A stretch of 64,000 nt of DNA, taken from the NCBI RefSeq assembly GCF_013155125.1, contig NZ_CP053564.1, forward strand, positions 3,603,501 to 3,667,500, read 5' to 3'. This document shows positions 30,716 through 33,655 of the stretch, in pieces; positions within the stretch are counted from its first letter, which is position 1, and each line of letters begins with the position of its first letter. Both the position numbers and the translations under genes were made by a program. This DNA comes from Pseudonocardia broussonetiae (GTDB lineage: Bacteria; Actinomycetota; Actinomycetes; Mycobacteriales; Pseudonocardiaceae). The notes beneath the pieces are model-generated. The model saw only the letters and a list, made by a program, of their open reading frames with translations, made no database searches and was not told where the DNA came from.

Positions 30716-32490
30716 GCGGGCCCGACGCCGGCGGGCCCGACGCCGACGGGTACGACGCCGACGTCCTCGTCGTGGGCACCGGCCCCACCGGCGGGGCCGC
30801 GGCGCTCGCCCTGGCCACCTACGGCGTCCGCGTGCACGCGGTGACCCGCTGGAACTGGCTGGCCAACACCCCGCGCGCGCACATCACCAACCAGCGCACG
30901 GTCGAGGTGCTGCGCGACCTGGGCGTCGAGGCCGAGGCCACGAAGCACGCCACGCCGTGGGAGCAGATGGGCGACACGCTGTTCGCCACCAGCCTCGCCG
31001 GCCCCGAGATCGCGCGGTTGCGCACGTGGGGGACCGGGCCCGACCGCGCCACCGACTACCTCACCGGCAGCCCCTGCCCGATGCTCGACATCCCGCAGCC
31101 GCACCTGGAGCCGGTGCTGGTGGGCGCCGCGGCGGCGCGCGGCGCGACGTTCGCCTTCACCACCGAGTACCTCGGCCACACCCAGGACGACAGCGGCGTC
31201 ACGGTCGCGCTGCGCGACCTCACGACGTCGCGGGAGTACACCCTGCGCGCCCGCTACATGATCGGCGCCGACGGCGCGCGCTCGCAGGTCGTCGAGGAGC
31301 TCGGGCTGCCGATGGAGGGCGAGCTGGCCCGCGCGGCCACCGCCTACGTGCTGTTCCGCGCCGACCTGAGCCGCTACGTCGAGCACCGCCCGTCGATCCT
31401 GCACTGGCTGATGACCCCGAGCGCGGCGTTCGGCGAGATCGGCATGGGCCTGCTGCGGGCGATCCGGCCGTGGCACACCTGGATCGCCGGCTGGGGCTAC
31501 GCCCTCGACGGCCCCGGACCCGACTTCGACCCGGAGTCCGTGACGGCGCGCATCCGCGGCTACGTCGGCGACCCGGACCTGGAGATCGAGATCGAGTCCT
31601 GCTCCAGCTGGTACGTCAACCAGGCGCACGCCACCCGGTACTCCTCGGGCCGGGTGTTCTGCGGCGGCGACGCGGTGCACCGCCACCCGCCCTCGAGCGG
31701 GCTGGGGTCCAACACCTCGATCCAGGACGCGTTCAACCTCGCCTGGAAGCTCGCGTTCGTCGTCCACGGCCACGCCGGGCCGGAGCTGCTGGAGACCTAC
31801 TCCGACGAGCGGGTGCCCGTGGGGGCGCAGGTCGTCGCGCGGGCCAACCGGTCGCGCGTCGACTACGCCCCGCTCAACGAGTGCTTCCGCACGACGGGGG
31901 AGGCCGACCCGGTCGCCGCGGGACTCGCGAAGCTGCGCGACCCCGGCCCGGACGGCGTCGCCGTGCGCGAGGCCCTCACCGCGGCGCTGGAGCTGAAGAA
32001 CCATGAGTTCAACGCCCAGGGCGTCGAGCTCAACCAGCGCTACGCCTCCACCGCGGTCGTGCCCGACGGGGACGCGGGGGAGGAGGTGTTCGCCCGCGAC
32101 CGCGAGCTGCACCTGCAGGCCACGACCCGGCCCGGGGCCAAGCTGCCGCACGCGTGGCTGGTCGACGGGGCCGGGCGGCGCACGTCGACCCTCGACGTCA
32201 CCGGCAAGGGGCGGATGTCGCTGGTCACCGGGCTGTCGGGCGGCTCGTGGGTGCGCGCGGCGGCGAAGCTCGACCTGCCGTTCCTGCGCACCGTCGTCAT
32301 CGGGGCGCCGGGCGCCGAGGACGCCTACCGCGACTGGGCGCGGCTGCGCGAGGTGCACGAGGCCGGGGCGCTGCTGGTCCGGCCCGACGGCTACGTCGCC
32401 TGGCGCCACGGCGACGCGGTGCGGGACGACGACGACGCCCTGGCCCGGCTGCGGTCGGCGCTGAGCGCGGCGCTGTCGGCCGACTACTGA
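30712..32490 (+). CDS. FAD-dependent phenol hydroxylase, TfdB/MhpA type
   Basis: A 592-aa class A flavoprotein monooxygenase. The FAD signature is VVGTGPTGGAAALALA; the block WLANTPRAHITNQRTVEVLRD is characteristic of 2,4-dichlorophenol hydroxylase-like enzymes. The second FAD/NADPH motif is IGADGARS and the GD motif is FCGGDAVHRHPPSSGLGSN. A thioredoxin-like C-terminal domain ends the protein. It should hydroxylate a phenolic substrate ortho to its OH to give the catechol for the dioxygenase. Last gene of the cluster. Confidence 0.93.
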   Translation: MSGPDAGGPDADGYDADVLVVGTGPTGGAAALALATYGVRVHAVTRWNWLANTPRAHITNQRTVEVLRDLGVEAEATKHATPWEQMGDTLFATSLAGPEIARLRTWGTGPDRATDYLTGSPCPMLDIPQPHLEPVLVGAAAARGATFAFTTEYLGHTQDDSGVTVALRDLTTSREYTLRARYMIGADGARSQVVEELGLPMEGELARAATAYVLFRADLSRYVEHRPSILHWLMTPSAAFGEIGMGLLRAIRPWHTWIAGWGYALDGPGPDFDPESVTARIRGYVGDPDLEIEIESCSSWYVNQAHATRYSSGRVFCGGDAVHRHPPSSGLGSNTSIQDAFNLAWKLAFVVHGHAGPELLETYSDERVPVGAQVVARANRSRVDYAPLNECFRTTGEADPVAAGLAKLRDPGPDGVAVREALTAALELKNHEFNAQGVELNQRYASTAVVPDGDAGEEVFARDRELHLQATTRPGAKLPHAWLVDGAGRRTSTLDVTGKGRMSLVTGLSGGSWVRAAAKLDLPFLRTVVIGAPGAEDAYRDWARLREVHEAGALLVRPDGYVAWRHGDAVRDDDDALARLRSALSAALSADY

Positions 32491-32523
32491 CCGACGTGGG
32501 GCGCGCGTCACCCGGCGGGGGTG

Positions 32524-32552
32524 TCGAACTGATGTTCGATCTGCCGTAGGGT
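32524..32552 (+). promoter_or_regulatory. LexA (SOS) box overlapping a promoter
   Basis: TCGAACTGATGTTCGA (32524-32539) is a perfect match to the actinobacterial/Bacillus-type SOS box TCGAAC-N4-GTTCGA. Its left half takes the -35 position relative to a TAGGGT -10 hexamer at 32547-32552 (17-base spacer). The small gene at 32628 follows. Confidence 0.8.
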
Positions 32553-32627
32553 CGGGTCTCCGGTGGCCGGACGCCGGGGAAGGGCGCCCGGCCGCCGGGC
32601 CGATGCCGTCCACGGGAAGGCCCTGCC

Positions 32628-32906
32628 GTGTCCTCTGCCGAACTGACCCCGGCGCAGCGCCGCGCGGCCTACGTGCGCGCGAACAGTGCGGCGATCGCCG
32701 AGACCGCGCAGATGCTCCGCATCTCCGCCCAGCACGACGCGCGCACCGACCCGTTCCGCGGCGACCTGGGCAAGGCGCAGGCCTCGCTGCTCGACGCCGT
32801 CGGCCGCCAGGTCGCCTCGCTGCCGCGGGAGATCGTGACCGAGGCGCTGGCCGTGGTCACCGCGGTCGACCGGCTGATCGGCGTGCACCGCTCCACCGAC
32901 GCCTGA
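32628..32906 (+). CDS. SOS-box-controlled small protein of unknown function
   Basis: A 92-aa soluble, predominantly helical protein with no membrane segment and no cysteine. It starts at GTG behind GGGAAGG. Helical stretches are PAQRRAAYVRANSAAIAET, LGKAQASLLDAVGRQVASL and REIVTEALAVVTAVDRLIG. A perfect LexA box lies about 90 bases upstream. I do not recognise the family. Regulation points to a role in the DNA damage response or its aftermath (for example a division or repair modulator), but nothing in the protein proves this. Confidence 0.78.
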   Translation: MSSAELTPAQRRAAYVRANSAAIAETAQMLRISAQHDARTDPFRGDLGKAQASLLDAVGRQVASLPREIVTEALAVVTAVDRLIGVHRSTDA

Positions 32907-32911
32907 GCGTC

Positions 32912-33655
32912 CTACGGGAAGACCGCCCGGACGTCCTCGGGGTCCGGCCCGTCCGGCCCGATCAGCACGACCGCCTCGTCGAAGCCGGCCTCGGCGTAGC
33001 GGTGCAGGACCTCGCCCGTGGGGCCCGGGTCGGCCGCCACCGGCACGGCGCACACGACCGCCCGCCGGCCCCCCGCCGCCCGGTACCGCGCGTGCGCGGC
33101 GACGATCTCGTCGGGCGTGGTGCGGTAGGCCGAGGCCAGCCAGCCGTCGAACTCGCGGGCGGCCCGCTCGACCTTCGCGCCCCACGAGCCGAGCAGCACC
33201 GGCGGAGGGCCGGTGGGCGGCGCGGGGGCCAGGACCGCGTGCTCGTCGCGGCCCTCGGTGAGCAGGACCCGCAGCCGGGCCACGCTCTCGTCGAAGGTGC
33301 GGAAGCGGGCGGGGTAGGGGCGGTCGAGCGCGGCGTAGTCGTCCCGCGTCGAGCCGGGGCTGACGCCCAGCGACAGCCGGTCGCCGCACACGGCCATCAG
33401 CGAGAGGACGCGGTGGGCGAGGTCGGCGGGGTGGTGCAGCGGCACCTGCACCGTGGCCGTCCCCAGCGCCACGCCCCCGGTCGCGGCGGCCGCCGCCGCG
33501 AGCGTGACGAACGGGTCCGGCACCAGCGGGCCGCGCCCGATGATCTGCGGGGTCCACAGGCTCTCGAACCCCGCACCCGCCAGGCGCCGCGCCCACTCCG
33601 CGACCGGGTGGGGCGGGGCGTCGGACAGGTGGGCGAGCGTCGCACCCAGGCGCAT
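32912..33655 (-). CDS. LLM class (F420-type) oxidoreductase
   Basis: A 247-aa, rather short luciferase-fold protein (RLAGAGFESLWTPQIIGRG, ALGTATVQVPLHHPADLAHR, LGVSPGSTRDDYAALDRPYP). The opening and the VLLGSWGAKVERAAREFDGW block resemble actinobacterial F420-dependent members, but the cofactor is not provable here. Its ATG overlaps the stop of the acetoacetyl-CoA synthetase (TGATG), so they are translationally coupled. It converges on the SOS-controlled gene with a 5-base gap. Confidence 0.85.
   Translation of the reverse strand: MRLGATLAHLSDAPPHPVAEWARRLAGAGFESLWTPQIIGRGPLVPDPFVTLAAAAAATGGVALGTATVQVPLHHPADLAHRVLSLMAVCGDRLSLGVSPGSTRDDYAALDRPYPARFRTFDESVARLRVLLTEGRDEHAVLAPAPPTGPPPVLLGSWGAKVERAAREFDGWLASAYRTTPDEIVAAHARYRAAGGRRAVVCAVPVAADPGPTGEVLHRYAEAGFDEAVVLIGPDGPDPEDVRAVFP

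Follow-up and report, generated by a model that had tools for sequence, protein, structure and literature searches.

The stretch of DNA considered here, called the window (64,000 nucleotides of Pseudonocardia broussonetiae, contig NZ_CP053564.1, positions 3,603,501 to 3,667,500 of the forward strand), contains a small gene encoding a protein of 92 amino acid residues (aa), which is preceded by a LexA/SOS box. The gene lies, as had been stated in a previous sequence-only reading of the locus, between a catabolic cluster and a converging gene: the upstream neighbour encodes a flavin-dependent (FAD) monooxygenase (FAD_binding_3, E-value (E) 1.4e-91), and the downstream one, at 32912–33637 on the minus strand, a luciferase-like monooxygenase (E 1.4e-27). 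Between the box and the gene there is a leader hairpin with the loop GGGGAAG, the exact complement of the loop of the mraW RNA, located in the dcw (division and cell wall) operon of the same genome. What the present analysis adds is this hairpin of SOS transcripts, together with the fact that it is complementary to the leader of the dcw operon. The hairpin had been missed by the sequence-only reading and is the more informative feature of the locus. The open reading frame (ORF) itself has a GC content of 0.97 at third codon positions (GC3) and 0.53 at second ones (GC2). The features are collected in Table 1.

Table 1. Position of the gene and its control elements (coordinates of the window)
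Feature	Position	Strand	Remarks
TCACCC/GGGTGA element	32508..32513	+	16 bases 5' of LexA box; also in several family X promoters
LexA/SOS box TCGAACTGATGTTCGA	32524..32539	.	12/12 specified bases; covers -35
-10 element TAGGGT	32547..32552	+	7 bases 3' of LexA box
Leader hairpin, 5' arm CCGGTGGCCGGACGCC	32560..32575	+	stem covariation across leaders
Leader hairpin, loop GGGGAAG	32576..32582	+	exact complement of same genome's mraW loop CUUCCCC
Leader hairpin, 3' arm GGCGCCCGGCCGCCGG	32583..32598	+	
ORF of 92-aa protein (family X)	32628..32906	+	GTG start; three helices; SOS-controlled

LexA control of the 92-residue gene and its relatives

The description of the site as an exact actinobacterial SOS box lying over the -35 region of a TAGGGT promoter proved to be correct. 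It is the sole exact LexA box in the window, where four sites with at most two mismatches were counted against 2.0 expected. The genome as a whole (7.29 Mb) has 14 exact boxes and 56 with at most one mismatch, and the reversed pattern occurs three times. The exact boxes precede genes of SOS type, several of them concerned with replication or repair, for example, those of a PHP polymerase domain, DnaB and DUF222 proteins; some of the proteins behind boxes we take to be DnaE2, ImuA' and 13E12. The boxes L117, L119, L124, L128 and L130 of this genome (G000) precede DUF222-like genes, presumably of the 13E12 type; one of them was tested against Pfam and matched DUF222. The motif TANNNT recurs at about the same spacing after the box in homologues (TAGGGT, TAGCGT, TAGAGT or TAAGTT), and from the position of the -10 element the transcription start is expected at about 32559.

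The name "orphan" given to the 92-aa protein was not justified, as homologues exist and form a family that has paralogues and is related to a protein of another SOS operon. When 60 relatives were searched, 13 homologous loci were found in seven genomes, and a profile search of the genus gave 30 places in 18 of 62 genomes. Family X is understood here as the 19 strong places (more than 46 bits) in 12 of these 62 genomes. Its distribution is patchy, with two or three copies in some genomes. Eleven relatives were found among 5.8 billion proteins, and the weak matches of the search outside the genus came from six of 200 genomes of the bacterial family, three of these six belonging to the genus. In one genome (G067), the gene occupies the same site as in G000, between the end of the monooxygenase gene and the converging gene, and in another (G070), which has two copies, one is situated close to SSB and a phage integrase. 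Family X is related to Z, the second gene of the Y–Z SOS operon (hhalign probability 96.8, E 3.1e-10, 72 columns).

Conservation of the box upstream of homologues, proposed earlier as a check, was established. A box with 11–12 of the 12 bases lies within 300 bases upstream of the gene in 15 of the 19 strong places, in 9 of the 13 loci of the first search, and in 16 of the 35 loci considered in total, distant relatives included. By chance, about 0.05 boxes would be expected in 19 upstream stretches, as calculated from the 56 near-boxes per 7.29 Mb. The four strong homologues without the box are a locus cut by a contig end (L013), one with a lost start (L033), one with a degenerate frame (L025) and one that has the hairpin only (L035/L011). 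The 4-base centres of the boxes vary among homologues, and the conservation is therefore not a mere result of recent copying. Thus, the link with LexA, formerly drawn from a single site, is supported by the homologues, and on sequence grounds the 92-aa gene is almost certainly under LexA control. A chance box before an ordinary gene is hardly credible: near-boxes are not rare in a GC-rich genome, as the four sites of the window with at most two mismatches indicate, but the box is exact here, is kept in most strong homologues and is followed by the same -10 element and hairpin. This explanation was rejected on the basis of the conservation.

The protein had been described as helical, in agreement with its predicted model, a three-helix bundle (residues 8–40, 42–60 and 67–84; mean predicted local distance difference test (pLDDT) score 89.8) with no membrane segment. 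No convincing solved relative of the model was found; no PDB fold match was significant, and no family was prominent in the fold listings, in which the absence of a fold carries no weight. The protein matched no Pfam family up to E 5; its best NCBIfam match (E 0.048) was not credible, and PHROGs gave a single weak family of unknown function (E 3.3e-5), absent when a relative was used as the query. Phage origin was rejected after no match was found in 50,697 phage records or in viral contigs, and a relative of the protein gave no match in 72,556 plasmid records. A common origin of families X and Y was also rejected (profile comparison, E 0.15, not similar). The protein is dispensable, family X proper being carried by 12 of the 62 genomes of the genus. 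In our opinion, it is most likely an accessory SOS effector, which would act by binding another protein, and its earlier designation as a candidate new SOS effector is a fair one.

The leader hairpin of SOS transcripts

The hairpin (32560–32598) is placed between the LexA box and the ORF, at the expected 5' end of the mRNA. Of the 15 family X loci with a box, 13 have a strong hairpin with the GGGGAAG loop, on differing stems, the exceptions having the loops GGGGCAG (G017a) and ACGGGAC (G080a); in the homologue L011/L035 the hairpin is kept despite the absence of a good box. The pattern of a box plus this loop occurs in 45 of the 62 genomes of the genus, some matches being chance ones in coding sequence, and the reversed control gave 0 of 62. 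Within the genus, various genes stand behind the leader: that of a 105-aa protein, members of family X, members of family Y (about 95 aa, in some cases with Z after them) and the gene of a longer protein in G026 and G085. Outside the genus, HEPN_SAV_6107 proteins (L166, L192) and a translesion polymerase (L185) are encoded behind it. Pfam analysis of the downstream genes gave HEPN_SAV_6107 in three genomes (E 8.3e-35, 1.1e-34 and 1.6e-23) and IMS (E 2.6e-50), and the 105-aa protein had no match in Pfam or NCBIfam. The loci L174 and L175 (G026 and G085) carry a box and the leader hairpin before an unplaced protein of about 280 aa or more.

Several comparisons characterize this hairpin. GGGGAAG sites with at least seven of eight flanking pairs make up 40 of 81 sites downstream of a box versus 17 of 237 elsewhere, where the 81 sites, some of which are there by chance, follow boxes of at least 11 of 12 bases in the loci available for this count. 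An alignment of 26 leaders has 90.4% of its cells paired, and each of the 12 stem pairs varies on both sides; these leaders were chosen for pairing, a choice that raises the proportion of paired cells but has no such effect on how diverse the pair types are. The covariation score is 0.891 compared with 0.220 for shuffles, 0 of 500 of which reached 0.891, and controls with slid arms gave no more than 0.25. The model R2, which contains no box but was trained on SOS leaders, was applied to 40 genomes of the genus, part of its training leaders coming from the same 40 genomes, and of the 33 loci read, 31 are preceded by a box of 10–12 of 12 bases. In P. broussonetiae, R2 at E below 0.01 finds two places only, the 92-aa gene and the SOS operon of the 105-aa and HEPN_SAV_6107 proteins (L162:12497-13425, minus strand), which shares its strand with the mraW RNA and lies some 10 kb upstream of it. 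The search with R3, the reverse complement of R2, repeats the R2 result and is not independent of it.

Wider patterns were less selective. A loose one, found in 216 of 297 genomes of the bacterial family, included many coding matches, had a control that was not empty and was used for examples only. A stricter order-wide pattern (63 of 298 genomes) was mixed as well; part of the 30 loci read, for example the WhiB-like L198–L201, are not hairpin leaders. The whole untranslated region (UTR) is not unusually stable relative to shuffles (z -0.05), and so the case for the hairpin rests on comparison, not on energy. With this comparative evidence, the existence of a conserved SOS leader hairpin is very probable.

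At permissive thresholds, no Rfam family reached its gathering score over the leader in the region 32300–33100 and 16 loci, the sole match over a cut-off in that scan being an unrelated tRNA-Sec in L039. Nothing relevant to the leader or to CUUCCCC in bacteria was met among open-licence PubMed Central (PMC) papers. Self-regulation of the 92-aa protein through binding to its own leader was rejected because the identical type of leader precedes unrelated genes. The role of the loop as an anti-anti-Shine-Dalgarno sequence was rejected as well, its pairing with the 16S tail being weak (-5.5 kcal/mol).

Complementarity to the mraW RNA and its possible meaning

Searches for the mraW RNA (RF01746) found it in 58 of the 62 genomes of the genus at E ≤1, the cut-off being exceeded in 23, and at E ≤0.01 in 120 of the 150 genomes of the order that were covered, with 79 above the cut-off. 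Of the 60 loci read, 56 have the loop CUUCCCC, and the other four are loci cut by contig ends and read at a wrong offset. In G000, it is located between mraZ (E 4e-41) and rsmH (E 2.9e-104) on the same strand, and this genome carries the GGGGAAG and CUUCCCC loops in two separate leaders, where both loops are predicted to be exposed. The 7-base loop duplex (-11.2 kcal/mol) is the best of 21 permutations. The mraW RNA (Weinberg et al., 2010) is similar to the SOS leader in its long GC-rich hairpin, 7-base core loop, leader position and occurrence in the same genomes; it differs in a loop corresponding to the opposite strand and in its place in the dcw operon, and no LexA box was noted for it in the present analysis.

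The resemblance was also found by model searches. The opposite strand of the SOS leader was matched weakly by the mraW model, with E 0.014 and 0.017; the scores, 24.4 and 30.8 bits, are below the gathering score of 50, and the transcribed strand did not reach the gathering score of the mraW RNA. R2, built without any mraW sequence, was run on 150 genomes of the order and found 76 places, spread over 63 of these genomes. Twenty-six of the places, in 26 genomes, overlap the mraW RNA, without exception on the strand opposite to it, and two further ones (L300, L301) are upstream of rsmH-like ORFs.

The two loop types meet again on other elements. In 357,488 bases of context, there are 23 strong hairpins with this loop, namely, 18 SOS leaders and five CUUCCCC hairpins before genes: two ArdC-like genes (with ArdcN matches of E 4e-4 and 1.9e-4, which fall slightly short of the cut-off), one gene without a Pfam match, which we take to be DUF932-like, and two Z genes of G094. 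The hairpins of the two ArdC-like genes and of the DUF932-like gene each share a stretch with an SOS leader, at a distance of about 0.3–2.8 kb, one of these stretches (L278) also carrying SSB and a ParB-like gene, and the three elements with both complementary loops are probably mobile. For 17 loops obtained by permutation, with the composition unchanged, 10 of 710 sites had strong hairpins, versus 23 of 72 sites for the real loop. Since the contexts had been chosen for holding SOS leaders, only the five count as unbiased, and the unbiased surplus is 5 of the 54 remaining sites against 1.4% expected. The other 33 hairpins with perfect stems and 7-base loops in these 357 kb have 32 different loops, which makes a chance match of loops unlikely. 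In the Z-like genes of G094 (L042 and L046, minus strand), the CUUCCCC hairpin is about 75 bases before the start and has the loop type opposite to that of SOS leaders.

On this basis, the following scheme may be proposed. DNA damage would remove LexA and allow transcription of the 92-aa gene into an mRNA that begins with a stem-loop exposing GGGGAAG and then codes for the three-helix protein. SOS transcripts in Pseudonocardiaceae and some related families share this recurring stem-loop leader before unrelated proteins. All 7 bases of the loop could pair with its counterpart CUUCCCC in the mraW RNA of the dcw operon, giving a kissing complex, and the loop might also pair with similar loops before genes on mobile elements. 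SOS transcripts would thereby modulate how the dcw mRNA is translated or how stable it is, or the influence would run the other way; a lowering of dcw expression during SOS is a guess. The argument is that a loop which turns up on one unrelated transcript after another, while its stems are free to vary, must have some partner in common, and the mraW-type loop is the only conserved partner found in these genomes. Two examined genomes of g60 have neither the mraW RNA nor the leader, as after a joint loss, which is suggestive only. If the loops do pair, the protein-coding gene would be secondary to the leader, or both would act together. Functional pairing of SOS leaders with mraW-type loops is suggested here tentatively, as somewhat doubtful. 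As an explanation of the whole locus, a LexA-regulon gene with a leader pairing to such loops falls only a little short of being probable. That these hairpins constitute, in Pseudonocardiaceae and relatives, an RNA arm of the SOS response coupling damage to dcw expression, into which mobile elements with both loops plug SOS-driven and antirestriction-like genes, is a bolder idea and rather unlikely.

A number of facts weigh against the pairing scheme. Both loops are invariant, so no compensatory change between the partners is seen; the deviating GGGGCAG loop of G017 faces an unchanged mraW loop, and the family X leader of G080a has another loop altogether. Family X proper is present in a minority of the genus, and its gene in G070 stands beside a DUF932-like gene without a CUUCCCC hairpin there. 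Of the remaining 48 R2 places, many with E 0.01–0.1 are unclassified. The mraW model also scores on its own opposite strand in some genomes, and such stem-driven scores help R2 to find mraW. Genomes of g8 matched by R2, where the matches are mostly the mraW RNA itself, keep the mraW loop with no SOS leader found, and hence this RNA must have some role without the leader. In Corynebacterium glutamicum, the listed mraW start site is inside the 3' part of the motif, and the loop may therefore be transcribed only from upstream.

The hairpin could instead act only in cis, as an mRNA stabilizer or as a target of an RNA-binding protein reading GGGGAAG, the complementarity to mraW being a coincidence or a consequence of shared GC-rich design. 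Its position at the expected 5' end of the mRNA, the invariant loop on variable stems, as in protein-bound hairpins, and the retention of mraW loops in genomes where R2 found no SOS leader all agree with this explanation. It nevertheless leaves unexplained the CUUCCCC loops in mraW and before the ArdC-like, DUF932-like and Z genes, as well as the recovery of the mraW complement by R2 in 26 genomes, and the diversity of loops in the other hairpins makes coincidence improbable; we regard an exclusively cis action as possible, on the doubtful side. Another explanation puts the 92-aa protein itself at the centre, as a new inhibitor of division in the SOS response or a modulator of that response, and treats the leader as incidental. 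This seems unlikely, though not very much so, because the protein was not found to resemble known SOS division inhibitors, matches no Pfam family and has no significant PDB fold match, and the leader is common to unrelated genes and present where the protein is absent.

One more variant is that CUUCCCC and GGGGAAG act as hairpins in DNA, single-stranded or double-stranded, to which a regulator binds in either orientation. The mraW and SOS leaders would then be one element in opposite orientations, and the presence of both loops on the three elements with an ArdC-like or DUF932-like gene would be natural. However, the stems vary freely with compensatory changes, which fits a folded strand rather than a double-stranded operator, and this variant is improbable.

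Related systems, significance and minor features of the promoters

Like the 92-aa protein, the SOS division inhibitors SulA, YneA, SidA, DivS and ChiZ are small and LexA-controlled, but no Pfam or NCBIfam family shared with them was found, and the model of the 92-aa protein is without a membrane segment. We know of no conserved RNA leader in these inhibitors. Regulation through seven bases that pair between exposed loops of two RNAs is familiar from the plasmids ColE1 and R1. The RNAI/RNAII and CopA/CopT pairs, like the leaders discussed here, are two hairpins with fully complementary 7-base loops; unlike in those pairs, the partners here are leaders of different mRNAs at different loci, and their pairing is predicted. 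UpsM, a small RNA (sRNA) from the dcw leader of Rhodobacter sphaeroides, is another case of RNA regulation in the leader of a dcw cluster, which differs in coming from another phylum and in having, in the part of the article available, nothing on LexA or SOS (PMC5089854). The LexA regulon of the actinomycete Streptomyces venezuelae uses the same type of box, and the term HEPN is absent from the text of that article, whereas no hairpin leader was met in the passages covered (PMC9380542).

So far, the mraW RNA has been a cis-regulatory candidate, with no partner met in the literature covered. If the proposed pairing is real, it would be a checkpoint linking DNA damage to the division operon independently of any protein, addressable through point mutations in two 7-base loops. 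Even without pairing, the shared leader hairpin on unrelated LexA targets would add a new layer to the actinobacterial SOS response. The leader also marks new SOS genes: the accessory families X, Y and Z and the operon of the 105-aa and HEPN proteins.

The promoters of X and Y types have the box over the -35 region followed by TANNNT. The promoter of the 105-aa operon differs in that a TTGACG...TACT-like promoter comes first and the box is after the -10 element. The TCACCC/GGGTGA element was found within 60 bases of the box in 14 of 69 leader promoters, compared with a background of 5.2% of 60-mers. Among these are L001, L005, L006, L009, L010, L014 and L024 of family X. In several family X promoters the element is about 12–25 bases 5' of the box, and it is possibly the site of a second regulator. 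In addition, a conserved LexA box precedes a gene, presumably WhiB-like, in four genomes of the genus g20 (L198–L201).
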